Assembly (NCBI RefSeq): GCF_000238255.3
Contig: NZ_CP011039.1
Location: 2,591,001-2,655,000, forward strand
Source of the DNA: Pseudoalteromonas spongiae UST010723-006
GTDB taxonomy: Bacteria; Pseudomonadota; Gammaproteobacteria; Enterobacterales; Alteromonadaceae
Reading direction: 5' to 3'
Length of the DNA: 64,000 nucleotides
Under the pieces are notes generated by a model. The model made no database searches, was not told the DNA's origin, and saw nothing but the letters and a program-made list of their open reading frames with translations. The position numbers and the translations under genes were made by a program. Of this stretch, positions 24,016-45,506 are shown piece after piece. The stretch's first letter is position 1. Each line of letters opens with the position of its first letter.

Positions 24016-24060
24016 ATATCTTCCTATGAACACTTACTATACTCTTGTTGACATCATTAC
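24016..24060 (+). repeat. Left island end with subterminal inverted motifs
   Basis: Reading inward: ATATCTTCC directly at the junction, then GTTGACATCATTAC at 24047-24060. The right end, read inward, has ATATCTGCC and GTTGACATAATTA in the same order at similar spacing. These are probably recombinase binding sites. A further inverted GTCAAC occurs at about 24086. TTGACA inside the motif could also serve as a -35 for the recombinase operon (17 bases later TGCATT, a weak -10). Confidence 0.7.
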
Positions 24061-24126
24061 TACTAGGGTTTGCATTAAACGCAACGTCAACAAAACAAAA
24101 AGGTAGATATATTCTTTGGGATAATT

Positions 24127-25251
24127 ATGAAATTCAAGTACGGATTTACGGAAGTTTTTTGTGGTGGTCGGAGTTTAATAACAGCAGTGCTATTTACTGA
24201 AAACTTTACCTATCACAAAGCAAGCTGTCACTTCCTCCTAGAAGTTGCTAAAAAGTCAAAATCAGGTAGTAAGTCGACAGTAAAGGGGCGTGCAAGTGAT
24301 TTGACTCGTTACCTAAACGTAATTAGTAAAACTGATTCTTCAGGCCACTTTTTCCCATCTGATTACAGAGAAATCACTGAAAGTCAGATGAACACTTATT
24401 TAATGGATTTAGTAAATAATGGCCTCCAAGATGTATCTATTACTAGGCACATATCTACCCTTTCAGAGTTTTATTGCTTTGCATATAAGCACGGTTACAT
24501 TGATGAGCCAAAAGAGTTTTCATACAGTGTTAGAACCTTGTCGGCTAAATTGCAATTAGCTGATAGAGCCACATCCACCATTCTTTCGCAATATATCCAA
24601 GAAGAAGACTTTAATAATATTCTTGCCCATATACCTACGAAAGATATGTTCAAAAGATCTCGTAATGAGATGGCTCTAAAGATGGGGTATTTTCTTGGTG
24701 TTAGGACACATGAACTTGTTAAATACGGCAATTTTGATATTGAAAACCTCAAAAAACAATTCCCAAATGATAAGGTCGGTTTCTATGAAGAGGCTTTCAT
24801 TAAGATCACCGGTAAAGGTTATAAGCGCCGTTCTGTACCAATATCTATGGAACTAAAAAAAGACCTGTTTCGTTTTCTGTACGGGGATTTAAGTAAATAT
24901 GTGGGAAAAAACCTTTTTGAGAAAAAGAAAGGTACCCCCATGACCAGTGCATCTTATGCTACAAAACTTTTTAGATCCTCTGTAGATGAATATCTGTCGA
25001 AGAATATTACTCCAGCGGAATTAAGGAGCTCTTATAATCGATGGGTTTTTCATTCACTTCGACATACGTGCGCGACTAACTTTGTTACATATTGCGAGGA
25101 TATGGACATGGGTAGGTACGATCCGATGCTCAGCTTGCCTCAATGGATGGGACACGAAGATGACAACACAACTAAGCTTTATATCTGTGCGGAAGCCTTG
25201 TTATTTAAACGATTAGAAGTGATTAAGAAGTTAGATCGTATGAGCATTTAG
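24127..25251 (+). CDS. Tyrosine recombinase (first gene of the island integration module)
   Basis: The 374-aa protein has an N-terminal SAM-like helical core-binding region (about residues 25-130) and a C-terminal catalytic domain. The full active-site set is visible: Arg in GVRTHELV (about residue 193), HSLRHTCATN (about 308), GHEDD (about 341) and Tyr in TKLYI. So it should be catalytically competent for strand exchange at the island ends. It starts 110 bases inside the left end and is followed 21 bases later by the 761-aa gene with its own AAGGA RBS. This is one operon running inward. Confidence 0.9.
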   Translation: MKFKYGFTEVFCGGRSLITAVLFTENFTYHKASCHFLLEVAKKSKSGSKSTVKGRASDLTRYLNVISKTDSSGHFFPSDYREITESQMNTYLMDLVNNGLQDVSITRHISTLSEFYCFAYKHGYIDEPKEFSYSVRTLSAKLQLADRATSTILSQYIQEEDFNNILAHIPTKDMFKRSRNEMALKMGYFLGVRTHELVKYGNFDIENLKKQFPNDKVGFYEEAFIKITGKGYKRRSVPISMELKKDLFRFLYGDLSKYVGKNLFEKKKGTPMTSASYATKLFRSSVDEYLSKNITPAELRSSYNRWVFHSLRHTCATNFVTYCEDMDMGRYDPMLSLPQWMGHEDDNTTKLYICAEALLFKRLEVIKKLDRMSI

Positions 25252-25272
25252 ATTCGACTTTAAAGGAAAGCT

Positions 25273-27558
25273 ATGAGTAGTATTGATACATCGCACGTAA
25301 AGAGCATCTCTACAATAAACTGTAGGTTAGATAAGCTAGAGGTGCCTGCTGAAACCGAGCACCCTATCCTGCAAGCTATATGGTTTAAATTTTATTCTAA
25401 GAAGTTTGCTAAATTAGGAGATGGTTCGGTGAAAATTTGGGTTAGGGGAGCTAACAAGCTTTACCATTTCCTGACAAATAGAGGATATACTGCTATCAAT
25501 ACTACGCCAGTAACAATTTTTAACGAATGGGCAATAACACTGGCGCAAGATAAAGATAGCTCTAAATCCTATTATCAAGTTAGACCTTTTGTCACAGCGG
25601 TTAAAGATTACTTCTTTGCTAAAGGGTCATTGCTGAGCATTGACGAATATGACTTCTTAAATCAAGTGATTCAAGAGTTCGATATTCAACGAAGAAGTAG
25701 TAAAAAGAAACCACCGCTTTCTATGATGTTTTCTAACTGTCCTTATGGTGATGATGAATTATTAGTGTCACTAAGGCTAGTGTGCGCAAATATCATTCTG
25801 TTAGAGCAAAAAGCTAAAGATACAATATTAAACCAAGAATATTGTAGGCATTTTTTAGAGTTTGAATGCGACTCAGTATCCAACCCTTACTATCTTCAAT
25901 CATTTAATAGTGGGAGTAATGAGTGCCGTACAATAATGCTTCCTATTTTCAAGGCTATTTTTGAAGAAAATAACGAGTTTGCTAAAGAGTGTGTACTAAC
26001 AGAAGTTTTCAGCAATTATAATTTCGATTATTGCCTTAACTCCAGTAATGTGAGTGATTTATACGCTGAATTTATTAGCCCCAAGAAAAAACTTATTGAG
26101 TCTCCGCTTTCTGTTGCTGATATTGAGGAAATGAAAAGTAAGTTAAAGCATTCAAAGCCATCTATGAGAGCCTTAGGTGAAAAATATGGTTGTACAGAGT
26201 ATGACGCAAGAAGATCTATTGAGGGGTATTTTCCCGAAAGTATACCTCGTGATGTAGTGATAAATATAAGGAATGAATATAGTAAACCGCACTACACTCA
26301 TTCTGATGCTCAAAAAGAATACGGCATAAAAAAGCACACTTTGGTACGTCTTCTTAAAAATGGTGGGCATTCATATAAAGTTGTGACCTCCCCTTCTAAA
26401 TCAAGGTATATGACATCGCATCTAAATATTGATTCGCTCGGGCTGACTGGAAATTCCTGGACTTGCAGGTATTTTGGGGTTTCAAACCTAACGTCACTTA
26501 ACCCAATTCAAGAGTGGGCGTTGTTTTGCCTATTAGCCACCGAAGGTGTGCAAACCACAGGAGTTCAAAATCTTGTATTTTCTGACATAAAAGAAACTTC
26601 CAGCATATCCGGCAAGCAAACAATTCAGTTCGATTATATAAAAAATCGTTCAACAATATCCTTATCAACAGCTCTACATTCGAATAAAGATACCCCTGAT
26701 GTATTTTATCGAGCATACAATTGCGCAGTTTCTCAAGCGAAAAGAGCAATAAAATATAGAAACACCACTGAAAGTGACAAAGTTTTTGACTCTACTATAT
26801 TTTCCTTAAGTAAATTCTTGAATAGTAAGGGCAGAGGAGCCCACATCCGAGAGCGATTGCTTAATAGTAATTCAGTGTTAAGAAATGCATTAGGAGAACT
26901 AATATCTAATGAACAGTTAGAACCATTTTTATGGTTATTAGAGAGATTAAAAAAATCAGGAAAAGCACTTCCAATTAGTCCTATACATGAATCGTTTGTT
27001 CTTGTATCAAGTGTAAATACGACGATAGGTAGTCACGCAGACGCTGCTGCACGTTTGTCTGGTCATTCAAAGAAAACAGAAGAAGATGTCTACTACAGTA
27101 GATATCCACGTATCGTTAAAGAGAAGATATCTGACACACCGTCACTATCGTACCGAGTGGCAGAAATGATGTCGAACTTTGCTGATGACATAAATGATAT
27201 GCTGTCTAAAACTGAGGTATTAAATAAGTCTGATGTAAAAAGCTTATTAGGTTTAAATCACATCAGTGATGCAGTCGAAGACATTGGCCTGTTAGGTGAA
27301 TTTAAATCAAAGCAAAAGACTGTATATGTAGCCACTGCAAGTACCGCTGCTCTTATATTGAGAAGACTAGATCATTTAAAAGCTGAGATTCCCAGGATAA
27401 TACAGCATCAAAGAAGCAGTAAAAGAATCGTAACGGCTGTACTGAAAGAGTTTATCCAATTGTCTGAAGTATTGGCAAAGTTTCCTAAAAATGTACTTTC
27501 TGAAGGCGAAAAGCATTCGAAGAAGCTTCCAACTTCACTCTTTCCTCCGATAGTGTAA
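25273..27558 (+). CDS. gmtY: Recombinase-like protein, GmtY-type, with degenerate active site
   Basis: The 761-aa protein has the layout of a large Tn554-type recombinase, with an N-terminal core-binding region, a middle helical part and a C-terminal catalytic-like domain. The first catalytic Arg position reads GVQTTGVQNL (Gln instead of Arg, about residue 424). The HxxR box is not recognisable; only ARLSGHSKK and a following YYSRY remain (about 592-607). It may therefore act as an accessory DNA-binding subunit. I recall GmtY as the second gene of gamma-mobile-trio modules; assignment is by order, size and neighbours, not by search. AAGGAAA precedes the ATG. Confidence 0.68.
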   Translation: MSSIDTSHVKSISTINCRLDKLEVPAETEHPILQAIWFKFYSKKFAKLGDGSVKIWVRGANKLYHFLTNRGYTAINTTPVTIFNEWAITLAQDKDSSKSYYQVRPFVTAVKDYFFAKGSLLSIDEYDFLNQVIQEFDIQRRSSKKKPPLSMMFSNCPYGDDELLVSLRLVCANIILLEQKAKDTILNQEYCRHFLEFECDSVSNPYYLQSFNSGSNECRTIMLPIFKAIFEENNEFAKECVLTEVFSNYNFDYCLNSSNVSDLYAEFISPKKKLIESPLSVADIEEMKSKLKHSKPSMRALGEKYGCTEYDARRSIEGYFPESIPRDVVINIRNEYSKPHYTHSDAQKEYGIKKHTLVRLLKNGGHSYKVVTSPSKSRYMTSHLNIDSLGLTGNSWTCRYFGVSNLTSLNPIQEWALFCLLATEGVQTTGVQNLVFSDIKETSSISGKQTIQFDYIKNRSTISLSTALHSNKDTPDVFYRAYNCAVSQAKRAIKYRNTTESDKVFDSTIFSLSKFLNSKGRGAHIRERLLNSNSVLRNALGELISNEQLEPFLWLLERLKKSGKALPISPIHESFVLVSSVNTTIGSHADAAARLSGHSKKTEEDVYYSRYPRIVKEKISDTPSLSYRVAEMMSNFADDINDMLSKTEVLNKSDVKSLLGLNHISDAVEDIGLLGEFKSKQKTVYVATASTAALILRRLDHLKAEIPRIIQHQRSSKRIVTAVLKEFIQLSEVLAKFPKNVLSEGEKHSKKLPTSLFPPIV

Positions 27559-27571
27559 GGAAAAAGAAATA

Positions 27572-29686: not shown

Positions 29687-30277
29687 ATGAACATTGATGA
29701 TATAACAAATTTTGATATTGATAATTGGCTTGAAGCGAGCGACGATACAATTAAAGCTCCTGAATGGTTAAAGCCTGGTGCGGAGAGTGCATTTTATAGG
29801 GCTTTTGAGGCTTTAGTAGAAGTGTGCAAAGCAAATATCATGGAAGCTCACTCACCAGCCGAATTAACAATTAGCAAGTATCAAGTCAGTAATACAGATG
29901 TATGCAACAACTTAAATAAACAACGGAGCGCGTTGCGTCCTAAAAGGTATCCAAAACTGGTGAATCATATGTATGACACCAACGCTATGCTCAGAGCCCT
30001 CCGGAAGAGGGAAATAGATAAACACTTGCAGACACAAGGTAGTAAGAACAAGCCTGAGCTTGTTATCGAAAACCAACAATTAAAGAATGAAGTAAACAAG
30101 CTAAAAGGCTTACTGCACAGAGAGTTCGTGGATATGATTATAAAGGAAAGCGACAGCTTAAAAATTCAAGACAAAGTACAAAGGATATCTGACCTAGAAG
30201 CACGAAATGAGGAATTAGAGCGCCAAGTGGCAAGAATGTCTCTGCAGTTAAGAAAAAACTTTGGGATGGTTGAATAG
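29687..30277 (+). CDS. gmtX: Coiled-coil accessory protein, GmtX-type
   Basis: The 196-aa protein starts immediately after the stop of the 704-aa gene (TAAATG), so it is coupled to it. The N-terminal half is mixed; the C-terminal half (about residues 115-190) is a continuous heptad coiled coil (ENQQLKNEVNKLKGLL... RISDLEARNEELERQVARM). Small coiled-coil proteins are the third component of Tn554-like transposition modules (TnpC) and of the gamma-mobile trio (GmtX). Function is probably accessory to recombination or target choice. Confidence 0.68.
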   Translation: MNIDDITNFDIDNWLEASDDTIKAPEWLKPGAESAFYRAFEALVEVCKANIMEAHSPAELTISKYQVSNTDVCNNLNKQRSALRPKRYPKLVNHMYDTNAMLRALRKREIDKHLQTQGSKNKPELVIENQQLKNEVNKLKGLLHREFVDMIIKESDSLKIQDKVQRISDLEARNEELERQVARMSLQLRKNFGMVE

Positions 30278-30480: not shown

Positions 30481-31459
30481 ACCTTGGCTGACACATTTTT
30501 GTATATTTACTTTGTGTTAGTTGAGGTTTTAGATGAACAGAAAAGAAGAACAAGAAGTTAGACGTAAGCTTAAGATTTTAGATCACGCAAAAGAAACCAG
30601 AAATGTTAGTAAAACCTGTCGCTACTGGGGGGTATCCAGAGATACGTTTTATCGTTGGAAAAAAGATTATGCAGCTAAAGGAGAAGCAGGGTTAATCAAC
30701 TCTAAGCCATGCCCCGAAAATCCAGCTGTTCGAGTTGATCCGGTCATCGAAGAAAAAATCTTATATTTACGTAAGAACTATCATTTTGGGCAAGCTAAAA
30801 TTAGTTGGTATTTAGCTCGTTATCATGGGCTAAAAGTATCCATATCAGGCGTTTATAGCGTGCTTTGTAGGCATGGACTTAATCGTCTCCCCCAGAATCT
30901 TAGAACGCGGCAAGTTAAATCCGTAAAGAGGTATGAGAAACAAGTTCCTAGGCACCATGTTCAAGTTGACGTTAAGTTTTTAACCTTCAAGGACAAGTCA
31001 GGCAGGAAGGTGCGTAGATTCCAATATACAGCTATCGATGATGCTACACGTATCAGAGCATTGAAAGTCTACGAAAAACACAATCAAGCATGTGCCATCG
31101 ACTTTATTGATTACGTTGTTGGCAAGTTTCCGTTCCGCATTAAAATGATACGTACAGATAACGGCCATGAATTTCAATCTAAGTTTCATTGGCACTGCGA
31201 GGATCTGGGAATGCTGCATGTGTATATCAAACCTGCTAGTCCTAACCTCAACGGAAAAGTCGAACGCTCTCATCTAACCGACAAGAGAGAGTTTTATCAG
31301 CTATTAAACTATAAAGGAGACGTAGATTTAGAGGCCAAATTGGCTGAATGGGAGGCGTTTTATAACTACCATAGACCACATGGTGGCTTGAAAGGAAAAA
31401 CGCCTTATGAGATTCTAGTTTCGAAAATGAGAGCCTAGTTATAGTTTGTCAGCCGAGGT
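30481..31459 (+). mobile_element. IS481-family insertion sequence
   Basis: One transposase gene lies between 13-base terminal repeats: ACCTTGGCTGACA at 30481-30493 and, inverted, ACCTCGGCTGACA at 31447-31459 (12 of 13 identical). Length 979 bp fits IS481. No target duplication is clear in the flanks. It sits just after the trio genes and just before the 50-bp repeat that bounds the OLD module. The 200 bases between the gmtX-like stop and this element carry no gene. Confidence 0.78.
30533..31438 (+). CDS. IS481-family transposase
   Basis: The 301-aa protein has an N-terminal helix-turn-helix region (VSKTCRYWGVSRDTFYRWKK) followed by an rve-type DDE catalytic core. The acidic residues are in QVDVKFL, RTDNGHEF and NGKVERSH, and the ending has YNYHRPHGGLKGKTPYEIL. 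Full length for IS481 transposases and intact, so the element may still be mobile. Confidence 0.9.
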   Translation: MNRKEEQEVRRKLKILDHAKETRNVSKTCRYWGVSRDTFYRWKKDYAAKGEAGLINSKPCPENPAVRVDPVIEEKILYLRKNYHFGQAKISWYLARYHGLKVSISGVYSVLCRHGLNRLPQNLRTRQVKSVKRYEKQVPRHHVQVDVKFLTFKDKSGRKVRRFQYTAIDDATRIRALKVYEKHNQACAIDFIDYVVGKFPFRIKMIRTDNGHEFQSKFHWHCEDLGMLHVYIKPASPNLNGKVERSHLTDKREFYQLLNYKGDVDLEAKLAEWEAFYNYHRPHGGLKGKTPYEILVSKMRA

Positions 31460-31472
31460 TTCGAGACCCACA

Positions 31473-31522
31473 AATAAAGTTTTTAACCTTGGGGTGATCG
31501 CTTCGCCCCTTAACCTTGGTGA
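31473..31522 (+). repeat. 50-bp inverted repeat, copy 1 (bounds the OLD module)
   Basis: Contains AACCTTGGGGTGATCGCTTC and continues to CTTGGTGA. The reverse complement recurs at 34597-34646 with only two mismatches. Each copy can fold (GGGG...CCCC arms). The two copies enclose the 245-aa and OLD genes. Confidence 0.85.
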
Positions 31523-31661: not shown

Positions 31662-32396
31662 TCATTTCACATCATGTTTGTTTTTCGCTTGTTCTCTGTT
31701 ATTTTCATGATGCTCATTCAGTTCATGCCAAAACTTATCTAAACCCCTTTTAGATTCTAGCGATATGTGAAGCCTATTATTGCCCCAATTATTAGCAGAG
31801 ATAAAACGCTGTAATAGTTGGAGATCATATTCTGCCCAATTATCCGCATGTTGGATATAAGGAATATCTGTAACCCAAAACCTTAAATCTCCGGATGTTA
31901 TTCTAATAATTGATGAAACAACTTCCCCATATTTGGTCCACAACCCCCTGTAACTCCGGCAAATCTCCCCTCTAGAATAGATTTTTTTACTTTTACAGAC
32001 TGTGAATAAATTATCTAGATTGACAATGTTCAAGAAAGTATATGTGTAAGCTGAAAGAATATCATTAGTACCTTCAAATCCCGCTCTTAGCTTTACTAGT
32101 TTTCTATAGTACGCAGGATGAAAATCGGATTTAAGTTTACCAATAAATTGTCTTGCTGATTTCCAAGTACCGTCAGTTTCAATAGACTCATTCGCAAATA
32201 AATCTAACTCTACCTCTAATTCAATAATTAAATCAGATAGCTTTTCATTGAGTGCCCAAGTTTGTTTGTAACGTTCAATTATTAAAGTATTTTTGGTTTT
32301 TATTGCCTCTAGCAGAATCGATAGCTCATGCTGTCCTTTGGTTCCTGAAAATTTTGTAAGGCTATCTAGCCCCCATTTTAAGAGTAATTCGTACAT
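31662..32396 (-). CDS. Unknown partner of the OLD nuclease (244 aa)
   Basis: I do not recognise this protein. The ATG at 32396 directly follows an in-frame GTG; either could be used. It is mostly helical and soluble with no signal peptide, and ends in a charged tail (ELNEHHENNREQAKNKH). There are a few aromatic-rich segments (DLRFWVTDIPYIQHADNWAEY). It begins about 45 bases after the stop of the OLD-like gene on the same strand, so the two form an operon. In a mobile, repeat-bounded setting this pairing suggests a joint defence or toxin-like role; that is inference. Confidence 0.6.
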   Translation of the reverse strand: MYELLLKWGLDSLTKFSGTKGQHELSILLEAIKTKNTLIIERYKQTWALNEKLSDLIIELEVELDLFANESIETDGTWKSARQFIGKLKSDFHPAYYRKLVKLRAGFEGTNDILSAYTYTFLNIVNLDNLFTVCKSKKIYSRGEICRSYRGLWTKYGEVVSSIIRITSGDLRFWVTDIPYIQHADNWAEYDLQLLQRFISANNWGNNRLHISLESKRGLDKFWHELNEHHENNREQAKNKHDVK

Positions 32397-32443
32397 CACA
32401 AATACCTACAAATTAAACTCTATAAGCAGAATTCCCAAAAGCA

Positions 32444-34363
32444 TTAGAATAGCTCATTGATTTTTTTGAACATATCTTCGAATCTGTCCAAGGTTTCTTT
32501 TGAGAAAAAGTCAGAGTCCAGCCCCATAGTGAGTAATTCTTGAGATGGTTTATAGTGATTAAATCTCTTTCTTCCAAGGATAGATTGAATTTGTGTCAGA
32601 ATTGTTGGTTTCTTTTTATCTAAATCTTCTGCTGTAATTCCAGCGTGCTCGGGAAAAGCTTTTGAAAATATATGAAGGTACTCAGAAGTTTCAAATAAAT
32701 CTTCAATATCAGCTTGTGTGTAATCCTCACCTGCAAACTCATCAAAAAAGCGAATATTTTTATCTTTAATTATTTTTGATTTCACTAAGTTATCAATTCT
32801 TTGTGCACCTTTAGAATTATTAAACGAATCAAGTAAGCACGATACTTTTAACTTAGATCCCCTTAACAACGATATGAATGTCGCAACTTTATCCAAACCT
32901 CCGACGGGTACAATAGTGATATCGTCCTTTAAACCCACTAAGTTAAGGCTTTCAAGAAGGTTTGACATATATATCAAATAATTTAGATCAGAAGGCCCCT
33001 CAACTAACAAATTGTTCTTAGAGACAAACAAGTTTTGAGCAATATCATACCCAAGAGCTGCCTGGAGAGGAAACAAAGTGTCTGGATCTTTCTCTTGTGT
33101 GGCATTCGAAATAATACTGCCTTCTTCTGAGTCATAAACAGTCCTAACTCGATGTAAAGCATTGGACTCAACCATGAAAGGTGAGTGAGTCGTATATATA
33201 ACCTGATATTTATCAGATAAATCATTGATGAATCTCAATAGGTCTGCTTGAGCGGACGCATGAAGATTTAATCCTGGCTCATCTAACAGCAAAATAAAGT
33301 TATTGTTTTTATCATCTTGAATCTTACTGAACCAGACTATGAAAGAGAAAAACCAATTGAATCCTTTGCTTCTATTTTTTAATGGCAACGTAATTCTATG
33401 ACGTCTGTTTTTTACCCTAATATCAAGTATTTTCTCGGGGCTTTGATGTGGGTGATGTATCGATTCAATTTTAAATTCGATTTCTAGGTTGTTGTTCGTA
33501 GACCAATACTCAAATATTTGATCTGTTATTTCATTTGATGTTGATTCTAATTCTGCTATGAAAGACTCAAAACTAGACGAGTTAATTAGTTCTTCCACAT
33601 CAATCATAGCTAATTCAAATAATGCCTTGGCCGTATCGAGCTGTTGTTTGGTTAGCTCCTCGCTTGTTGTCTCATTACGAACAGAATTGATATTGACTCT
33701 AGACGGAAGAGAGTGATACTCATCAAAATACCAAAATCTTGGCAACCTTGGGGCTATATATCTTTTGAAAACATAAGCATCAATTAGCTTCCTTTTCCAA
33801 TCGTAAGCCTTGTTTACAATATTATTTTTTATGTGAGCAACGAAATCTTGAAGCTCTTCATTGTTACTGACATCCAGTTCTGTAACTTCTAATATTGTTT
33901 TGAGGTTTTTTAATATATCTTTAGTTTCACTACTTACACTTAGCTCATTTTGAAGGTTATCAATATATTTTTTTTCATTACAATTGATATGGTACCAAGT
34001 TCTTCCCGAACCATACCTGCTAGAGACAGTAAAATAATCTGTTGTAAGAACCCCATTCCCTAAATCTTCATTAATTTCATCAATGGTATTTTTATCCATC
34101 TGAAATTTACAAATAATAGGTTCGCATTGCTCACCGGCTCTCTGGTATTTTTTTAATTCATTACGAGGGTAATCTTTAACTTCGTCAAACTCAAAATCAT
34201 TATCGTTTGTGAAATAGTTTAGCTTGGCGAGAGCCTCTAAAAATGCCGTTTTACCACTTTCATTTTTTCCTACTACTGTGGTGACATCATCTTCTATCTG
34301 AACTATCTGCTCATTACCGTAACTCTTATATCTATTGATCTTAGCTTGTTTCAGAATAAACAC
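32444..34363 (-). CDS. OLD-family ATP-dependent nuclease (ATPase plus TOPRIM)
   Basis: The 639-aa protein starts at a GTG with AAGGAAG upstream. Walker A is GKNESGKT at residues 32-39, and the signature/Walker B region LLLDEPGLNLHA is at about 355. A switch His lies in YTTHSPFM. A TOPRIM domain begins LLVEGPSDLNYL (about residue 452), with an acidic position in SCLLDSFNN (about 508). This is the domain order of overcoming-lysogenization-defect proteins such as GajA of Gabija and the retron Eco8 effector. Those use ATP sensing to control DNA cleavage during phage infection. No UvrD-like helicase is adjacent; instead there is the unknown 244-aa gene. Confidence 0.85.
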   Translation of the reverse strand: MFILKQAKINRYKSYGNEQIVQIEDDVTTVVGKNESGKTAFLEALAKLNYFTNDNDFEFDEVKDYPRNELKKYQRAGEQCEPIICKFQMDKNTIDEINEDLGNGVLTTDYFTVSSRYGSGRTWYHINCNEKKYIDNLQNELSVSSETKDILKNLKTILEVTELDVSNNEELQDFVAHIKNNIVNKAYDWKRKLIDAYVFKRYIAPRLPRFWYFDEYHSLPSRVNINSVRNETTSEELTKQQLDTAKALFELAMIDVEELINSSSFESFIAELESTSNEITDQIFEYWSTNNNLEIEFKIESIHHPHQSPEKILDIRVKNRRHRITLPLKNRSKGFNWFFSFIVWFSKIQDDKNNNFILLLDEPGLNLHASAQADLLRFINDLSDKYQVIYTTHSPFMVESNALHRVRTVYDSEEGSIISNATQEKDPDTLFPLQAALGYDIAQNLFVSKNNLLVEGPSDLNYLIYMSNLLESLNLVGLKDDITIVPVGGLDKVATFISLLRGSKLKVSCLLDSFNNSKGAQRIDNLVKSKIIKDKNIRFFDEFAGEDYTQADIEDLFETSEYLHIFSKAFPEHAGITAEDLDKKKPTILTQIQSILGRKRFNHYKPSQELLTMGLDSDFFSKETLDRFEDMFKKINELF

Positions 34364-34965
34364 TCAGTAACTTCCTTTTAAAATCGAACTTGATAACTTT
34401 TTTTGTTACAAGTAGTTATAACACCTTAACTCTATGGAAGCTATCCCATGAGATTTTATAATGCGTATCTATATTCGGGGTCTCGATAAACTTCAACTTC
34501 TCGAGTATAAAAGTCATTAATAATCATAGTGATTGAAGTATCTCCTAATTAGACCTGCACTATCTTATGCTAAGTCATAATAATTTGAAAATTCAATCAC
34601 CAAGGTTAAGGGGCGAAGCGATCACCCCAAGGTTAGAGACTTTATTACTCTCTCACAATCGACTTCGGTCTCTAAAGTTAATGTAGATTTATGGTATAGA
34701 TTATTAAAACTACTAATTCTGCTTTTTAACTAATTTTTTAAAGGCTTAGGTATATTGCGTACTAATTCTGTAAAAGTTTCTTCAAACTGGTTACTGTTAA
34801 AATTGCTCAAATGTACTCCTGTTAATTATTAAGCGGTTCAGACCTAGGCGTATAGTGCAATACCATTTAAATTCAAGGTATTTAAGTAAACTAAATATTG
34901 GCTTTTTTGTTTTGAATCGCTTTGAGGCGGTCAGAGAATTTAGCCTCATCATCTTTAGTATTTAT
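34364..34965. other. Intergenic stretch with the second 50-bp repeat
   Basis: About 600 bases with no convincing gene. It holds the right 50-bp repeat (34597-34646) and a 23-base sequence GAGACTTTATTACTCTCTCA(CAA) at 34636-34658, which recurs at 39682-39704. It also holds an in-frame 24-codon tail (34891-34965) directly after the stop of the next minus-strand gene. The rest is AT-rich. Confidence 0.6.
34597..34646 (-). repeat. 50-bp inverted repeat, copy 2
   Basis: Reverse complement of 31473-31522 with two mismatches. The core GGGGCGAAGCGATCACCCC can form a hairpin flanked by direct AAGGTTA copies. It lies upstream of the OLD-like gene. Confidence 0.85.
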
Positions 34966-36353: not shown

Positions 36354-36374
36354 CTAAAATCGAGGAATAAGAAA

Positions 36375-38177: not shown

Positions 38178-38198
38178 ATATAGCAACCATATCGAAAG

Positions 38199-38316
38199 CC
38201 TCTAACGCCCAACTTTGGGACACAAATACATGGGCTAAAATAACGAGCGAAGCGAGGGAGCCCATGTATTTGTGTCCCAGCGAACGCAGTGAGCGCCAAC
38301 AGTTGTTTGTTAGCTG
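38199..38316 (-). repeat. attC-like cassette recombination site B
   Basis: On the minus strand it starts GCAGCTAACAAACAACTG (stop codon of the small membrane protein inside) and ends GTTGGGCGTTAGAGGC, a classic R'. The inner arms of twenty bases (GGGACACAAATACATGGGCT and its exact complement) are perfectly paired around a GCGAAGCGAG-containing loop. This is the clearest attC in the array. Confidence 0.85.
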
Positions 38317-38708
38317 CAAACCTGCTTATGAAAATATGCTCTATTGAGATATGTTAGGCAAGCCGTTACTGGAATTGGAAGAAACATAGCAATAGCCAAA
38401 AGCCAATCCATATAAGCTGCAAAAATAGTTGCAGTTAATGAAGCTATACAGCCTAAAGATAGATAAACAATTAATCGTTTGGGCGGAGTATCTGTTTTAT
38501 ATGGATAAAGCGTTAGATTGTTAAGTGCAAGCATACCCCAAAAACCCAAAAGACCAGCTACTACCATTAGAAATGGAACCAGTGTTGCCATTTGGCTTTC
38601 GAACATACTGTAGAGCCAAGCGGGACTAAATATAACCCCGAGGGTTAACAAAATCGCAGATGGTCCAAAAGATACAATTAAAACAACGAAATAAAGTATG
38701 CTTTTCAT
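38310..38708 (-). CDS. Small four-TM membrane protein in a cassette
   Basis: Started at the ATG at 38708, just inside the cassette; an upstream in-frame start would translate the neighbouring attC. About 132 aa with four hydrophobic segments (ILYFVVLIVSFGPSAILL, ATLVPFLMVVAGLLGFWGML, LIVYLSLGCIASLTATIF, LLAIAMFLPIPVTACL). I do not recognise the family. The stop codon is within attC site B. Confidence 0.6.
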   Translation of the reverse strand: MKSILYFVVLIVSFGPSAILLTLGVIFSPAWLYSMFESQMATLVPFLMVVAGLLGFWGMLALNNLTLYPYKTDTPPKRLIVYLSLGCIASLTATIFAAYMDWLLAIAMFLPIPVTACLTYLNRAYFHKQVCS

Positions 38709-38713
38709 TCTTG

Positions 38714-38818
38714 CAGCTAACGCCCGCATAAGGGGCTGATAATAGCTTGCTAAAATGTGTAGCGAAGCGGAACTGAGCAAGCTGTTAGCAGTCCCTTCAC
38801 TTAATGCGCTTGTTATGA
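38714..38818 (-). repeat. attC-like cassette recombination site C
   Basis: On the minus strand it starts CATAACAAGCGCATTAAGTG and ends CTTATGCGGGCGTTAGC, with inner arms AGCTTGCTCAG... / ...TTTTAGCAAGCT. The stop of the next cassette gene is in the first repeat. Strong match to attC layout (about 105 bp). Confidence 0.82.
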
Positions 38819-39187
38819 GTAAATATTACTCCACTCTTTTACAGAGTCCCAATCAAGTTCTAACTCTACTACTTTACCTTTAGCGTGGTAATTTTTACGA
38901 TAAGAAAAGAGGTTGTTATCTAGCTTGAAGCAATCAACGAAACCTTTCTCAACGGTCTTTAAACGTGACACGAGCTTATTTTCTAAATCAAATATTGCCA
39001 CGCGTGTAATTGGCCCTTTTCTATAATCAGTAGTAAGCCATTCTTCGATTGCTAGATAGCGCCCATTTTGAAGTTCGCTACGAGTAAAGCCATACACAAA
39101 ATTAGGTACTTTCTTACCGTCAATTTCCAATGAGTAATACGCTGGACCAAACCTAATCTCACTCTCATAGTTTAATTGATACTGCAT
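38813..39187 (-). CDS. Hypothetical cassette protein (124 aa)
   Basis: I do not recognise this protein. Started at ATG 39187; an in-frame TTG lies two codons earlier. It is a soluble beta-rich protein (PAYYSLEIDGKKVPNFVYG; GRYLAIEEWLTTDYRKGPITRVAIFDLENK), with no signal peptide. The stop is embedded in attC site C, as typical for integron cassettes. Confidence 0.6.
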   Translation of the reverse strand: MQYQLNYESEIRFGPAYYSLEIDGKKVPNFVYGFTRSELQNGRYLAIEEWLTTDYRKGPITRVAIFDLENKLVSRLKTVEKGFVDCFKLDNNLFSYRKNYHAKGKVVELELDWDSVKEWSNIYS

Positions 39188-39193
39188 ATTCAA

Positions 39194-39774
39194 ATTTACT
39201 CATAACAGCTTATTAATGCGCATTTCGATTTAAGGAAGTTATCCACAACCAAATATTTGCACGCTAATAAATTTTTTATTTAATATTTTCAGTAGATTAC
39301 CAGTAGTTTTTTGCCCTATCAATGCAAAACTGGATTTAGATAAACGAGCCATTACTTAATCGTGCCATTAGAGGACCGTTATGTAATTTTAATTTTCAAT
39401 TTTTAGCATTAAATATCAATCAGTTGTTTTTTTAGGTCTACATAATCGAGCCAAATATGATTTTACATAACGTGCCATATTCATGAACAAAAGTGGATCT
39501 TCGTAATGCAATGTGTGTAATGACGTTAGTTTTAGCAATGACCGCTCTTCGCTCTTTTGAGGCATTGGCCTAAACACGTTTTGGGGCATTTTCGATTTAG
39601 AAATGGCAGCGTATCGACTGCGCTAGCTGCCATTTTAGTATGATACTTTAATACTTAGTATGAATCTTTATTACTTGGTATGAGACTTTATTACTCTCTC
39701 ACAACAGTCGCATATGTGCCGTTCAGGAAATTGGAGTATAATAAAAAGTAAACACTATAAACATAGGTTAAATT
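39194..39774. other. Gene-poor gap: half attC, direct repeat, short tail repeats
   Basis: The first ~30 bases read on the minus strand as GCGCATTAATAAGCTGTTATGAG, the R'-side half of an attC whose other half is gone. The middle holds a 97-bp sequence (39552-39648) repeated at 44504-44598. The end holds the 23-base motif 39682-39704, also at 34636-34658. No gene is supported. Confidence 0.6.
39552..39648 (+). repeat. 97-bp direct repeat, copy 1
   Basis: From CTCTTTTGAGGCATTGGCCT through ACACGTTTTGGGGCATT to AGCTGCCATTTTAGTATGAT. It recurs at 44504-44598 with about a dozen differences. It contains a hairpin AATGGCAGCG / GCTGCCATT. Confidence 0.75.
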
Positions 39775-40002
39775 ATGATTGTTACTGTTGGTAAAAACGG
39801 GGCAATTCCTCTCCCACCTGATGAAGATTTCAATGAAGAAAACAAATTAAAAATTGGTGACATTCTGCTATGTACACTTGTGAAAGATAAACGCTCGATT
39901 AAGCTTGAAAAGTTTTCAGATCAATCTTTAAATGATGAACAAATTAAAGCTCACGGCTATTTATGCCGTGTAGAAGAACTTAACCCCGAAGATTTTGAGT
40001 AA
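39775..40002 (+). CDS. Small hypothetical protein (75 aa), antitoxin-like size
   Basis: The 75-aa acidic protein (VGKNGAIPLPPDEDFNEEN ... VEELNPEDFE) has an RBS-like AGG upstream and a beta-rich N-terminal half reminiscent of small AbrB/MazE-like DNA-binding antitoxins. I cannot assign the family. It is the only plus-strand gene within the cassette region and is followed after 32 bases by a 39-codon frame. Confidence 0.5.
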   Translation: MIVTVGKNGAIPLPPDEDFNEENKLKIGDILLCTLVKDKRSIKLEKFSDQSLNDEQIKAHGYLCRVEELNPEDFE

Positions 40003-40034
40003 TTTAATCTGATCTTTCCAAAGATAGGTATGTT

Positions 40035-40154
40035 ATGACTATCACATTGATAAAATCAATCAACTCAAAACAAGACTTTGAAAATGCGCTCGTCGCTCAT
40101 TTTATTGAATATGGGAGCACAACAACAAAACTATATCTGATAGCTCAAAGCTGA
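40035..40154 (+). CDS. Short ORF, possible truncated partner of the 75-aa protein
   Basis: A 39-codon frame starting MTITLIKSINSKQDFENALV and ending LYLIAQS. It follows the 75-aa gene closely in the same direction, and an RBS (AGGTATGTT) is weak. It could be a remnant of a longer partner gene or a chance frame. No family recognised. Confidence 0.3.
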   Translation: MTITLIKSINSKQDFENALVAHFIEYGSTTTKLYLIAQS

Positions 40155-40157
40155 CCT

Positions 40158-40257
40158 ATAGAGTAATCACGTTTGCTCACTTTGGGGCAGAGGCGAGTTA
40201 TATTTATAACCCGCCTATGGACAGAAACGTATTGAGACAAATGACAGTTATGTGCTA
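40158..40257 (-). repeat. Degenerate attC-like site
   Basis: On the minus strand it starts TAGCACATAACTG with the stop of the next gene inside, and has the inner arms AGGCGGGTTATA / TATAACTCGCCT. The R'-side (AAACGTGATTAC) departs from the consensus, so it may be inactive. Confidence 0.4.
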
Positions 40258-40692
40258 ATTTGTTAGTTTCATAAGTGTTGCAGTTATAACCGCTGTTGCA
40301 CTGATACATGCTACTAGTAATGGGACTATAACCTTCCAGCGCTCAAAGTTTGAAACCTGACGGTCATGAATTTCAATAGCAACTTCAATCAATTTTTGCA
40401 CTAAACTTGGATCTAGCCTCTCACGAATTTTCTTGCCATTTTGAGTTTCACAAGGTGCTACATACCGTGAGACTAAAGAGACTCTATTTACTTTATCTTC
40501 TTCGTCTCTAACACGAAATAGTTCAGGGTGGCATTTTGATAACTCTACCCAAGAACTTGCAGATCTTGGAGCTAGCTTTAGTTCTTCGACTAAACCTTCT
40601 TCACTGCGACTAGTGTTTCTGTGAAATGCTAAAACTTGAATTAAAGCGATCACTTCACCTAGTCTATGCTCCTTAAGGTACTCTTTTGACAT
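40255..40692 (-). CDS. Hypothetical cassette protein with C-terminal membrane anchor (145 aa)
   Basis: I do not recognise this protein. The first ~110 residues are soluble and helical (GEVIALIQVLAFHRNTSRSEEGLVEELKL), possibly a winged-helix fold. One membrane helix ends the protein (VIVPLLVACISATAVITATLM). GAGGG lies upstream of the ATG. It is flanked by attC-like sites on both sides, consistent with a cassette. Confidence 0.58.
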   Translation of the reverse strand: MSKEYLKEHRLGEVIALIQVLAFHRNTSRSEEGLVEELKLAPRSASSWVELSKCHPELFRVRDEEDKVNRVSLVSRYVAPCETQNGKKIRERLDPSLVQKLIEVAIEIHDRQVSNFERWKVIVPLLVACISATAVITATLMKLTN

Positions 40693-40709
40693 AACACTAC
40701 ACCCTCATG

Positions 40710-40803
40710 GCACATAACGCCCTAATAATGGGCAAAAAATTGTTTGCTAAAATGTTGAGGGACGAAAACAGCAAACTGTTTTTTGTCCTTGTTTATTAGC
40801 TTG
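40710..40803 (-). repeat. attC-like cassette recombination site F
   Basis: On the minus strand it runs from AAGCTAATAAACAAGG to TTATTAGGGCGTTATGTG, with inner arms GGACAAAAAACAGTTTGCT and AGCAAACAATTTTTTGCCC. Good attC layout. The cassette gene that should lie next to it on the right has been replaced by an IS110 fragment. Confidence 0.75.
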
Positions 40804-40880
40804 ATACTTATTGAACCTTCTCCCCGAAGTTTAGCGAACAGCTAAACTTCAAGGCGACCAAACCAAAAGGAGAAAGCTCA

Positions 40881-41465
40881 ATGAAATTCTATACTACTTT
40901 TCACAAATATTATTGTGGAATTGACCTACATGCACGCATTTTATACGTTTGCATTCTTGATGAGCGTGGTAATAAAGTTGTTCATCAGAAAATAAAAGCT
41001 GATAAACATGAGTTACTTAAACTGGTTTCGCCCTATCTTGAAGATATCGTAATCGGTGTTGAATGCATGCATTGTTGGTATTGGGTCAGTGATTTATGTG
41101 CTGAGCATGATGTTGATTTTGTGCTTGGTCATGCCCTTTATATGAAAGCCATTCATGGTGGCAAAGCCAAAAATGATAAGATTGATTCTTATAAAATCGC
41201 AAGCCTATTGCGCGGTGGCAATTTTCCGCTAGCTTACAATTACCCAGCTAATATGCGTTCAACACGCGATTTACTTCGCAGAAGAACACGATTGGTTCAG
41301 CATGGCGCACAACTGAAAGCGCATATAGTTAACACAAATAGCCAGTACAACTATCCGCCGCTTGAACTGCATATGAAAAATAAATTTGTTCGCCAAGAAT
41401 TCCAAATGCGCTTTGACGACCAAGCTGTTCAACGTAATGTTAATTTTGATTTAGCCAAACACTAA
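40881..41465 (+). pseudogene. IS110-family transposase, 3'-truncated
   Basis: 194 codons with a good RBS (AAGGAG) encode the N-terminal RuvC-like DEDD domain of IS110 transposases: YYCGIDLHARILYVCIL, IGVECMHCWYWVSDLC, and KNDKIDSYKIASLL. The C-terminal Tnp_20 domain with its catalytic Ser is absent; full proteins are about 330-400 aa. The frame runs out inside attC-like sequence at about 41450-41465. Members of the IS1111-attC group are known to target attC sites, which fits this position. Confidence 0.8.
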
Positions 41466-41526
41466 AGCTAAATCAAACCAAAACCGCCAAGCGTTGTGAA
41501 TCCGTCTTAAAACGTTTGTTAGGTAT
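41450..41526 (-). repeat. Half of a VCR-like attC site, cut by the IS110 fragment
   Basis: On the minus strand: TACCTAACAAACGTTTTAAG, then ACAACGCTTGGCGGTTTTGG and TTTAGTG. This closely resembles the gene-proximal half of Vibrio cholerae repeats. The other half is missing where the IS110 fragment begins. Confidence 0.65.
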
Positions 41527-42181
41527 TTAGTTCACGGATGAGTAAACTACCTAACTGCCTTGTGTTGTAGATGTTACCATTGCTATTTAGTATTGAAACC
41601 CCAAGCGCTTTAGCTACTTGCCTCAAATGTGGTTTAGCTGGCACAAGAGGGGAGCCATTGTCAATAACCTCTATTGAACCATTCTCACGCTCAGCAATAG
41701 TTAAGTTGCCCCAGACAGCTTCTTTAACTTTTGGAATGTCTCGATCGATGCTGTCCGATTTTGTTAGTTTGCTCAAAGCAAGTGTGTACTTTGAGCCAGA
41801 AGTACACATGAGCAACTTGGCTTTTTCAACACTTCCATCGAACAATGTTTCGATTTGCATTTCTTCAACGTTAATCCGTAAGACGATAACTCGGTCAACA
41901 CTATTGAGTGTATTTGGATTAAATGAAACCTGCCCATTATTAGCCAAACGTCCAGTAGTTTTGACTGAGACTCTTTCACCGTCCCCGCTGACTACATCAT
42001 ATCCCGATTGATTTATTTCAGTTGCCATTTGACCGTTGGTAATCAAAGCTGAATAAAGCTCACCAATTCTTCCTGTCAAATGCCTGAGTTCAGTAATAGG
42101 AACGCCCCAATTTAACTCGCGTTCAAGCCAAGACATCGACTCACCTAGTGATTGAATTACCTGGATTTGTGTTAATGCCAC
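41519..42181 (-). CDS. Predicted PD-(D/E)xK-like protein in a cassette (220 aa)
   Basis: The start is GTG at 42181 with a strong GGAGG. Residues about 35-75 have a restriction-endonuclease-like pattern: GRIGELYSALITNG (Glu in the first helix), then GYDVVSGDGERVSVKTT, where Asp and Lys match the PD-(D/E)xK core. The C-terminal half is a separate small domain ending with HLRQVAKALGVSI and a helix-turn-helix-like tail. Probably a nuclease or nuclease-derived DNA-binding protein. The stop is embedded in an attC half-site. Confidence 0.55.
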   Translation of the reverse strand: MALTQIQVIQSLGESMSWLERELNWGVPITELRHLTGRIGELYSALITNGQMATEINQSGYDVVSGDGERVSVKTTGRLANNGQVSFNPNTLNSVDRVIVLRINVEEMQIETLFDGSVEKAKLLMCTSGSKYTLALSKLTKSDSIDRDIPKVKEAVWGNLTIAERENGSIEVIDNGSPLVPAKPHLRQVAKALGVSILNSNGNIYNTRQLGSLLIRELNT

Positions 42182-42196
42182 AGACTTACCTCCTGA

Positions 42197-42295
42197 TGTC
42201 TAACGCCGCTTTGAGGTGTGAGCGGCGCTTGGCTATACTTGAGCGAAGCGAAAATACCAAGCGTTGCGAATGACTCTTAAATGCTATGTTATACC
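42197..42295 (-). repeat. attC-like cassette recombination site H
   Basis: On the minus strand it begins GTATAACATAGCATTTAAG and ends AAAGCGGCGTTAGACATC. The inner arms CAACGCTTGGTA / TAGCCAAGCG fold around a GCTTCGCTC-containing loop. The stop codon of the 658-aa gene lies in the first repeat. Confidence 0.8.
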
Positions 42296-44265
42296 TCTGT
42301 TCCAGAGTGCTCCTCCGCTAATATTACATCTTTCGTGTACTCAGAATATGATTCTTGTAAATATTTAAGCCCATCTGTTTTATCAATATTTATATCAAGC
42401 TGATCTCGAACAAACTCTAAACGATGCTTACACTCTTGTATTAATTCGCCCCACGTTTTCACATAAATAGTTAAGTTATCAATTTCATAAATGATACCTT
42501 TACCGGTTTTATCTTGCTTCAATTCCATTTCTGCAAAAGGTTTCAAATCGTTTGATATAACCCAGAAATTCCACTTGGTTTTTAGATGTTTGAATCGCTC
42601 ATCTGCAATAGATGCAAATGCATATGATTTAATTTGAGAAATTTCATCTTCACCAATATCTACTTTGGGGGCTTTTAATTCAACTACTAAGTGTTCCCTT
42701 TCATCTGAGTGGTTTTTACCGATACTTCTAGTCAACATTAAATCTACAATACCGACCCTACCATCAATTCGTTTTACAGGTTTATCTAGATGAACTGCCG
42801 AACCTTTTTTATCTAAATGTATTTTTAGCACTTCACTAAGAGACTGATCATTCACTGTTAGCGAAAACTCATCCCCAAAAACCCAGGTGTTCTCGGCAAG
42901 TATCTTGTGTAATTGAGTCCTTTCTTTCAATACTTTCTTCTTGTCAGGGTTAAATAGAATTTCTTCTAGTCCTGCAATAAACCTTAACCTGTCGGATATT
43001 ACTTTGGCGGTACTAATTATTGCAGATAAAGAAGCATCTTTAAGGAGCTCGGCTAACTCAGATTGCTTGCCTTTGGATAAGTTTAAAACCTCGGTCAGAA
43101 TAATGTGTAAATCATCAGGATTTGAGCCAACTATTTGTTTAAGTAAACGAAACTGAAACTTTTTAAGTTTAATATCTGTTCTTTCAAATTCAGGGATTTG
43201 CTCACTGATATTCAAAGCTAAAATATCAAAGACTTGTCGCTCAGCTTCTTCTATTGGGCCATTTAGTACATTAGAGTAAGGATAAATGTTTTCAATTTTC
43301 CATTTTTGAATTTTATCTGCTGAAAGTTCAATTCGGCGCAACATGAAGTGGTTCTTTAATGCAGAAATTGCAGCGTCAATTGGCTTAGATAATGATGGCT
43401 CAAGATCTCCAAGACCCAGTGTACCGACTGTATTTAGCTTACTAATATGTTCTGATTTTAAGTAAGCCGTATATGAAAAGTCACCTGTTCCTCGAATAGT
43501 TTTTTCATAAGGTAACAAAGGAAATCCATTGTTATTACAAAGCTGAACCTCATTAGTTGTATTGCAGTTCCATTCTATAATCTGTAATTCATATGGATAA
43601 TCAACATTATCAAAGAGAACATTATCTAAAGGTAGGTTAGTTTTGTGTTTAATTTGACCCTCTGGATCAACTAAGTCGCCATCAACATAAAGCTTAATTG
43701 ACTTATATTGTGATAGGTATATGGCAAAAACCGACGAAAAGTGCTCAAGCAAGCGCTCTTTATTTATAGATGTAAAATCTTTGTGGGGTTCATATATTGA
43801 AACGGTTGTTCCTGCAGACTGATTAGCACTAATTTTTGGTGATGTTGGGTAAAATATACCTTTATTATCTGCTTTACCTTTTATTGTGTATGAAAGTGTA
43901 TTTTCACCATCAAAGAAAGATGTATTCCATTCAACCGCCCTTCCAATTGCAAATGATTTAAATCTACCTTGACCTTCTTTACCATGTAGGAATCTTCCTT
44001 TAGGTGAAGTTCCTTTTTGCCCTTTCCAGGAACCCCCAAGGGAACTAAATAGCTTTTTGGAATCTTTATGGATAATTCCCATTCCATCATCTTTAATATG
44101 GACGGCTTGTAACCCAAAGTCAGTTCGTTCTATCGTAACTTGCACCAAATCCGCGTCAGCATCAAAAGCATTCCAAACTAGCTCAGTCAAAGCACTTAAA
44201 ACTGGTGCCCGAGAAACTTTATCCAAATGATCCTTTTTTACTTCTACTTTAATTGAATCTTCCAT
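42289..44265 (-). CDS. GHKL ATPase fused to a Shedu/DUF4263-like nuclease domain
   Basis: The 658-aa cassette protein has an N-terminal Hsp90/MutL-type ATPase with the N box ELVWNAFDADAD (Glu28, Asn32), the G1 box KDDGMGI and a lid with GKEGQGRFKSFAIG. The middle (about 200-430) is helical and unassigned. The C-terminus has LHKILAENTWVFGDEF (about 450), IDGRVGIVDLMLTRS, then HLVVELKAPKV (about 522-532) with an ExK core. This resembles the DUF4263 domain of Shedu (SduA) defence nucleases. A GHKL-driven switch controlling a C-terminal nuclease is the natural reading. The ATG overlaps an R'-like GTTAAAT and the stop is in attC site H, so it is a single-gene cassette. Confidence 0.75.
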   Translation of the reverse strand: MEDSIKVEVKKDHLDKVSRAPVLSALTELVWNAFDADADLVQVTIERTDFGLQAVHIKDDGMGIIHKDSKKLFSSLGGSWKGQKGTSPKGRFLHGKEGQGRFKSFAIGRAVEWNTSFFDGENTLSYTIKGKADNKGIFYPTSPKISANQSAGTTVSIYEPHKDFTSINKERLLEHFSSVFAIYLSQYKSIKLYVDGDLVDPEGQIKHKTNLPLDNVLFDNVDYPYELQIIEWNCNTTNEVQLCNNNGFPLLPYEKTIRGTGDFSYTAYLKSEHISKLNTVGTLGLGDLEPSLSKPIDAAISALKNHFMLRRIELSADKIQKWKIENIYPYSNVLNGPIEEAERQVFDILALNISEQIPEFERTDIKLKKFQFRLLKQIVGSNPDDLHIILTEVLNLSKGKQSELAELLKDASLSAIISTAKVISDRLRFIAGLEEILFNPDKKKVLKERTQLHKILAENTWVFGDEFSLTVNDQSLSEVLKIHLDKKGSAVHLDKPVKRIDGRVGIVDLMLTRSIGKNHSDEREHLVVELKAPKVDIGEDEISQIKSYAFASIADERFKHLKTKWNFWVISNDLKPFAEMELKQDKTGKGIIYEIDNLTIYVKTWGELIQECKHRLEFVRDQLDINIDKTDGLKYLQESYSEYTKDVILAEEHSGTEV

Positions 44266-44702
44266 TTAACACCTAAATTTGAATAAAACACTAAGAGGTA
44301 TAGCATGTTTATAGCGAGCTAATAGCGCGTCTTTCTGAATGACTCATTTTTAGCAAAATTCTTAACTAATTGCCATTAATACTAAAATACAGGAGTTCTA
44401 GCTTTTGTCTCAGGACAAAAACGAGCGATAGGGCCGCTTTCCTGACTATGCAGGCAATATACTTTGAGGAAATAGAAAAGCAATTTTGAATGGCCGAAGT
44501 TCACTCTTTTGAGTGCATTCGCCTGAACACGTTTTGGGGCATTCTCGATTTAGGAATGGCAGCGCATTGATGATCACTGCCATTTTAGTATGATACTTAT
44601 AAAGTACTCTCTCACAGTGATATTAGACTTAGGCTTTAAAACCTGTAAAAGAATTATCAACGCCATAAGATATTTGGTAGCTGAAAAGTGGATTAGCTTT
44701 CA
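44266..44702. other. Gap at the entry side of the cassette array
   Basis: No gene is supported. It holds an R'-like GTTAAAT overlapping the start of the 658-aa gene, and the second copy of the 97-bp repeat (44504-44598) followed by TACTCTCTCACAG. I looked for an attI or integrase remnant and saw none. Confidence 0.55.
44504..44598 (+). repeat. 95-bp direct repeat, copy 2
   Basis: From CTCTTTTGAGTGCATTCGCC through ACACGTTTTGGGGCATTC to ACTGCCATTTTAGTATGAT. Same order as 39552-39648 and same orientation. Confidence 0.75.
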
Positions 44703-45185
44703 CTAGTCCTTAAAGTTTTTAAATTGAAACGGTTGCCCAAGATCACTCTCGCGAATCAATTGCATTACAGACTGTAAGTCATCACGTTTTTTACCCGTCA
44801 CCCTTAATTCTTCGCCTTGTATTGCTATTTGAACTTTAATTTTTGTGTCTTTTACCATCTTAACGATCTTTTTAGCCACATCTTTTTCGATACCCTCTTT
44901 AATCGTGACTTTTTGATAGCAGAGCTTTCCCGAAAACTCAGGAGAAGATATATCCATAGCATTAGGGTCTATTTTTCTATTAACCAATTGCTTACGTAAG
45001 ATATCAACCATTTGTTTAACTTGGAAATCACTCTCTGCTTTTACCGTAACAGCTGGTGATTTCCACTCAAAACTTGCATCCACGCCTCGAAAGTCAAAAC
45101 GTGTACTAAGCTCTCTACTAGCGTTTTCTGTCGCATTACGCATTTCATCTAAATTAACTTCTGAGACTACATCAAATGAGGGCAT
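44703..45185 (-). CDS. yajQ: Intact island-borne YajQ (nucleotide-binding UPF0234 protein)
   Basis: Started at the ATG at 45185 (AAAGGA eight bases upstream) it is 160 aa, the normal YajQ length. It begins [18 protein letters not shown], keeps [13 protein letters not shown] and ends [10 protein letters not shown]. It aligns along its whole length with the split native YajQ, but at only roughly half of positions, so it came with the island and is not a duplication. YajQ proteins bind nucleotides; in some bacteria they are c-di-GMP effectors. It lies 321 bases inside the right end, in the same direction as the broken native 5' part. Confidence 0.93.
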
Positions 45186-45469
45186 ATCGTTATCCTTTAA
45201 ATTCAATATTAGCGTCGTATTATAACGTATTTGATGCCTTCTTCGAGGCGCAATTAAGGATAATCTCTATGCTATTTAGACTGAATAGAAATAATACTAC
45301 AATAGACAAAGGATACTATAGGTACTTCAACACCGTGAATTTTCTGTTTTTCTATATAAGAGATAAAAATATATGTTAGGATTGTCTACGAAAAAAATGT
45401 AGACATGGCTGGGTTTAAGATAATAAGTTTCAAAAATACCAGTAAAAATATGTAATTACACTCGCTGAC

Positions 45470-45506
45470 TAATTATGTCAACATTATATTTTGGGCAGAT
45501 ATGACA
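45470..45506 (-). repeat. Right island end with subterminal inverted motifs
   Basis: Read inward (minus strand): ATATCTGCC at 45494-45502, then GTTGACATAATTA at 45470-45482. Both match the left end. A further perfect inverted repeat TGTCTAC-N9-GTAGACA lies deeper at 45383-45405. TTGACA here points toward the island yajQ and may act as its -35. Confidence 0.7.

Follow-up and report, generated by a model that had tools for sequence, protein, structure and literature searches.

Genomic islands often limit the harm they do to their hosts by integrating at the ends of tRNA genes or in intergenic sites, and gamma-mobile-trio islands carry a recombinase beside further conserved genes, together with defence cargo. 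Strand-biased circularizing elements (SEs) are described as encoding IntA, the non-catalytic Tfp, the large IntB and the small Srap at their left end (PMC10214605; PMC5991714); after insertion, the 6 bp in attL are those of the new host, and those in attR were brought along from the previous site (PMC10214605). In GInt islands, as reported, the first two recombinases are catalytic and the third is without the first catalytic Arg (PMC5385486). The recA mobile element (RME) of Vibrio cholerae S24 splits recA and carries a divergent recA (PMC4405046), and an island in V. parahaemolyticus 090-96 is described as likewise combining a split recA with a divergent one (PMC4334540). Tn6283, known from a plasmid, has bcp as its insertion site and codes for a Bcp-like peroxidase, for which its authors suggested a role in compensation (PMC5991714). 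Because of the recA islands and the suggestion made for Tn6283, breaking a gene and replacing it is not new in principle.

Insertion site, ends and gene content of the element

The window (the whole stretch of DNA analysed, 64,000 nucleotides of Pseudoalteromonas spongiae UST010723-006) belongs to a complete genome of two contigs and 4.75 Mb. It contains an element of 21.5 kb with a G+C content of ~0.36, as compared to ~0.41 outside (Table 1). The initial annotation had an island at 24016..45506 splitting native yajQ exactly in two. The split is borne out: the flanks joined in silico form a reading frame of exactly 483 nt that encodes a 160-aa YajQ without interruption. The start of the island stands as first placed, and its end was 2 bp off, host sequence resuming at 45509. 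The attachment site originally proposed, KDSKV/KVQAA of yajQ, is supported as the site-specific target of a tyrosine-recombinase island.

Empty yajQ sites of related genomes agree with this. Both island flanks lie together in a single yajQ locus, without the island, in all 29 loci fetched from 107 same-genus relatives searched, and the island interior has no match in any of these 29 loci. The two flank alignments abut at most 18 bp from the junction in 28 of them; for the 29th, L006, the right-hand side was reported only as a piece further out. L006 is the closest relative found, and compared with it the joined native yajQ has a pN of 0.003 and a pS of 0.081, so the native halves are undecayed. 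With 29/29 relatives without the island and native halves almost unchanged, the insertion is derived and probably recent.

The plus-strand sequence at the left junction is host GCAGCTTG-TACTTT followed by ATATCTTCC; at the right junction, read inward, host GACTCAAAAGTA-AATGTC is followed by ATATCTGCC. Comparison of both with the empty site, GACTCAAAAGTA-AAAGTA-CAAGCTGC, identifies the left 6 bp as the host's and the right 6 bp as foreign. Only 9 bp, 8 of them identical, make up the strictly terminal repeat, and a second repeat of 14 bp lies further inside. This inner inverted repeat, TGTTGACATMATTA, has two exact copies, one near each element end. When two mismatches are allowed the pattern occurs once more, and since 1.9 chance matches are expected, its weight lies in the position of the two exact copies.

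The foreign 6 bp would read NV at the YajQ core, where KV stands in 120/120 homologues among the matches listed of 232. The core spacers of yajQ are all AARGTN and none is AATGTC in 49 loci, those read in register out of 58 fetched (9 were left out). A yajQ as donor of the footprint is therefore unsupported, and to judge from these residues the previous site of the element was probably not a yajQ.

Table 1. Features of the element and its insertion site (positions in the window)
Feature	Position	Strand	Basis
Native yajQ, last 44 codons and stop	23881..24015	-	Sequence match to yajQ, joined-flank test
Left spacer TACTTT, host-derived (AAAGTA in yajQ, codons 117-118)	24010..24015	+	Junction comparison, joined empty site
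Whole element, motif C to motif C'	24016..45502	+	Both junctions compared with joined empty site
Left terminal repeat C, ATATCTTCC	24016..24024	+	Junction sequence
Left inner repeat TGTTGACATCATTA	24046..24059	+	Repeat search
IntA-like tyrosine recombinase, 374 aa	24127..25251	+	PF00589, PF02899; alignment of 10
Tfp-like protein, 761 aa, predicted non-catalytic	25273..27558	+	Gln at first catalytic Arg position
IntB-like large tyrosine recombinase, 704 aa	27572..29686	+	R, HxxR, H, Y invariant in 9/9 aligned
Srap-like small protein, 196 aa	29687..30277	+	Position; alignment of 9
IS481-family transposase gene	30533..31438	+	NF033577
245-aa gene adjoining OLD-type nuclease, no family assigned	31662..32399	-	ORF, family scans
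OLD-type ATPase-TOPRIM nuclease, defence-like	32444..34363	-	PF13175, PF20469; AriA/Old/GajA-type matches
DUF6998 protein	41519..42181	-	PF22522
HATPase and HSDR_N-like protein, restriction-like	42289..44265	-	PF13589, weak PF13588; NF050001 partial, below cut-off
Complete carried yajQ, 160 aa, diverged	44703..45185	-	NF003819; genome-wide search
Right inner repeat TGTTGACATAATTA, inverted	45470..45483	-	Repeat search
Right terminal repeat C', ATATCTGCC	45494..45502	-	Junction sequence
Foreign 6-bp footprint GACATT	45503..45508	+	Junction comparison; missing from joined empty site
Native yajQ, codons 1-116	45509..45856	-	Sequence match to yajQ, joined-flank test

The tyrosine recombinase and the 761-, 704- and 196-aa genes noted at the outset are all present and run in one direction. 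By residue pattern the module encodes a catalytic, a non-catalytic and a catalytic tyrosine recombinase followed by a small protein; all 8 aligned 761-aa proteins have Gln in place of the first catalytic residue and lack HxxRH. The predicted structure of the 761-aa protein has a mean pLDDT of 57.6 from a shallow alignment and was set aside, and the family of this protein has no match in genome_contigs or viral_contigs. The 196-aa protein has no match among the families searched (Pfam and NCBIfam models).

Defence genes had been expected in the island, and defence-like cargo was found in the form of an OLD-type nuclease and a restriction-like protein. Further cargo includes an FtsW/RodA-type gene, an HTH regulator and an IS110-type transposase gene; no relaxase is present among the island proteins scanned, a set that leaves out some small ORFs. 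The OLD-type nuclease module is flanked by 50-nt inverted repeats, 96% complementary (31473-31522 and 34597-34646). A 113-bp intergenic repeat occurs twice with 83% identity (39537-39648 and 44489-44598), the second copy a short distance downstream of the carried yajQ. Short repeats surround small genes at 38204-42300; some are loosely like integron attC sites, and a simple pattern test was unconvincing.

The carried yajQ and the related elements

Just inside the right end of the element lies a complete yajQ that is absent from the initial annotation. It is the only intact yajQ in the host genome. Its DNA is 61.7% identical to that of native yajQ, with no common run longer than 11 nt. A single full-length yajQ match is present in 106 of the 107 further genus members searched. 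The yajQ of G079 is found as two adjacent partial pieces (G079:C26:196257-196735), suggesting a frame break or a sequencing error. In the order survey (394 genomes, host included), 370 have a yajQ match, and only the host genome and G454 have more than one (G454: two, best E 1e-18).

The carried YajQ protein shares 54-62% identity with yajQ products from the same genus. The matches listed include a Catenovulum entry (86%), a Paraferrimonas entry (83%), others up to 93% and one near-identical entry (99%). Divergence from the yajQ of G341 is 78% at synonymous sites and 15% at nonsynonymous sites, so the carried yajQ has, judged by its substitutions, evolved as a working gene, and we infer that it replaces the broken native copy.

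Profile searches covered 108 genus, 394 order and 395 family genomes, in samples that overlap. The 704-aa profile has matches in 61 of the 395 family genomes, most of them partial and of other recombinase classes. Nine further four-gene elements have a readable left flank (G615, G521, G753a, G753b, G629, G070, G311, G806 and G657), and a TTGAC motif is near nine of the ten left ends compared, G657 being the exception.

In G615, on one contig, an ion-channel gene (PF00520) is split after FEDWTD into a 5' part (3119376-3119921) and a 3' remnant (3096521-3096784); between them lies a complete channel gene that is ~61% identical in amino acids to the native 5' part over 181 residues. In G521, which is spread over several contigs, the 5' part of the channel gene is beside intA on one contig, and another contig has the 3' remnant with a complete channel gene ~170 bp further in; these contigs would together make up one element. 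The carried channel genes of G615 and G521 are 78% identical and of common ancestry, so the two are not fully independent cases. Both have the spacer GACCGA on both sides, as expected if the previous site was also an ion-channel gene. G753a occupies the same ion-channel site, and a complete copy that may belong to the element is on another contig and 95% identical to that of G521. In G070 a complete dinB directly follows the fourth core gene, and a truncated dinB on the same contig is bordered by an element-type end. This element is irregular: intA lies 12.8 kb from the left-end motif, and an N-terminal remnant of dinB was not found in G070. The element probably breaks dinB and carries a complete dinB.

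For G311, which targets a DUF4442 gene, and G806, whose target is presumably ppnN (from PF14793 and general knowledge), the remaining gene part gave one match only when the whole assembly was searched. For G657, in what we take to be an SDR-type gene, no target homologue was found in the ~45 kb examined. G629 and G753b target a dinB paralogue; the 37 kb and 9 kb examined, respectively, contain no carried homologue, and a complete dinB lies elsewhere. G311, G806, G753a and G753b are interrupted by contig ends.

We compared the ten elements with six target families. A homologue of the target was found inside the element in 4/10 matching pairs and in 0/50 mismatched pairs (tblastn, E 1e-4). Four of the elements have a target homologue, five are without one (G311, G806, G657, G629 and G753b), and for G753a the possible copy is on a separate contig. 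The Fisher p value for the ten elements (4e-4) is a guide only, as the elements are of common ancestry, some are incomplete and G070 is irregular; an eight-element count of 3/8 as compared to 0/40 (p = 0.003) is likewise a guide for elements of common ancestry, some of them incomplete.

The core of the carried yajQ is AAAGTT, and three complete ion-channel copies have GACTGA where the native core is GACCGA (GACAGA in the native gene of G753). We do not claim that carried copies are recoded against self-insertion, because AAAGTT is also the core of 8/49 natural yajQ loci.

Several other loci were encountered in these searches. The 704-aa family has three loci in genome_contigs and none in viral_contigs. 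In one of the three, L160, the left end is inside a different ion-channel gene, and the 20 kb examined, up to the contig end, contain no second one; L160 was left out of the ten-element count. Proteins of ~880-960 aa (G718, G012, G599 and others; L131-L152) form a separate class whose C-terminal catalytic domain is shared with the 704-aa recombinase; that of G718, the only one scanned, is without an NCBIfam name. A helicase-like gene (start MKLR-WQ-ECIN) with a 170-175-aa neighbour is recurrent cargo of several of these elements, at a distance from the core genes (L087, the L086 region, L117, L153-L155 and L160). In L157, from the same genus (G090:C1:312000-325000, 5207-12059), thyA is truncated after ~189 residues and directly followed by a complete thymidylate synthase gene (31% identical), then a 977-aa gene and a gene for a 699-aa protein with weak similarity to the large recombinase. 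This is possibly a case of break-and-replace in another element family.

Proposed mechanism and alternatives

We consider it likely that an SE-type element recently inserted at the 6-bp core of yajQ and that the foreign yajQ took over from the native gene. This best explains the exact split and restored frame, the 29/29 loci, the host and foreign 6 bp at the two ends, the catalytic order of the recombinases, the sole intact yajQ and the count of 4/10 as compared to 0/50. The element would move as a circle, and the 6-bp joint of that circle would become the footprint. The recombinases would bring this joint to the core AAAGTA (Lys-Val, codons 117-118), so that the host 6 bp end up on the left, the 6 bp of the earlier site end up on the right, and yajQ is cut. 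The carried gene, if expressed and functional, would then supply YajQ. As the footprint is unlike the yajQ core, the element probably came from some other site, such as one on a plasmid. Carrying a homologue may make insertion into protein-coding genes cheap for an element, an advantage that would be greatest if circle formation leaves the empty site unrestored, as reported for SEs; the substitute would then be useful while the element stays. Against this explanation stand the five of ten elements without a homologue in the DNA examined and the irregular G070. As far as is known, YajQ is non-essential in E. coli, so a substitute may not be needed.

More tentatively, break-and-replace may be a recurring strategy, in which a lineage of four-gene recombinase elements targets a conserved protein gene and carries a foreign homologue of it, exchanged as targets change, and the carried gene acts as a mild addiction device. 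The native gene would then be unrestored on copy-out and the host dependent on the copy of the element. Such an arrangement would resemble designed home-and-rescue drives.

The homologue may instead displace the native protein, by a changed function or by avoiding a mixture of variants, with no rescue involved. The carried copies are strongly diverged (yajQ 62% in nucleotides, the G615 channel ~61% in amino acids over 181 residues) and interference avoidance was proposed for recA (PMC4405046), but a gene transferred between genera would be diverged in any case, and we regard displacement as unlikely. Somewhat less probable still is that yajQ is chance cargo unrelated to the target: islands bear many host-type genes and five of ten related elements have no target homologue, but the contrast between 4/10 matching and 0/50 mismatched pairs argues against it, G615 and G521 being not fully independent cases.

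Comparison with known systems

The initial annotation assigned the island to the gamma-mobile-trio class. A recombinase next to further conserved genes and defence-like cargo is a likeness to those islands. The profile check, in contrast, found no Gmt-named NCBIfam match at E 0.01, in a test that lacks a positive control since NF040692 ('recomb_assoc'), which we take to be the GmtX model, matched none of 14 control genomes. At that threshold the 761- and 196-aa proteins have no NCBIfam family, and the matches of the 374- and 704-aa proteins are to generic Xer/integrase-type models only and fall below the cut-offs. The names of 38 relatives of the 704-aa protein include no Gmt name, most relatives being nameless. 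That the 761-, 704- and 196-aa genes encode Gmt proteins is thus very improbable: a tyrosine recombinase with three genes at one end and defence-like cargo speak for it, and the family and name searches, uncontrolled as they are, speak against it.

The layout fits an SE better. Like SE-6283/Tn6283 and SE-6945 as described, the element has the order intA-tfp-intB-srap at its left end, with IntA and IntB catalytic and Tfp not, by residues. As in SEs, its inverted terminal repeats are imperfect and its 6-bp footprint differs from the host spacer. It differs from SE-6283/Tn6283 and SE-6945 in target and cargo. We compared its proteins with one reference, the SE of pAQU1, whose genes were assigned by order. 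Tfp is 33% identical over 76 aa by BLASTP (E 1.7e-4), Srap has no BLASTP match and phmmer finds no match to this reference; hhalign gives a probability of 0.4 for Tfp and of 54 for IntB over 59 catalytic-core columns. By its layout the element may work like an SE, with similarity to the pAQU1 SE, the sole reference compared, that is marginal. GInt islands likewise have at one end a four-gene module of three recombinase-like proteins and a small protein (PMC5385486). They were set aside because the second protein here is non-catalytic and the third catalytic by residue pattern, whereas the protein reported without the first catalytic Arg is the third in GInts and the second here (PMC5385486).

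In the portions consulted, the accounts of GInts (PMC5385486) and SEs (PMC10214605) mention no carried copy of the broken gene, and yajQ does not occur among the literature matches listed, from which we claim no wider absence. To our knowledge, and as far as the literature searched extends, the targets yajQ, ion channel and probably dinB are new, as are the recurrence in one recombinase family and the matched-versus-mismatched test. The island and some of its relatives break conserved protein genes and bring a complete foreign copy as a probable substitute. The cost of insertion, the dependence of the host and the transfer of core genes between genera become testable, and where a genome has just one intact version of a core gene, that version may be foreign and reside on a mobile element.

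In its arrangement the locus has what defines an RME: yajQ is split at one site and a complete divergent copy is carried, at the end opposite the integrase. Short inverted repeats at the ends are a further likeness to the RME as described. The target there is recA and here yajQ, and the likeness is one of arrangement. The element resembles Tn6283 in carrying a homologue of its insertion target, bcp in that case and yajQ in this one. The recA case, until now a one-off, and the side remark on bcp may now look like instances of a repeated strategy.
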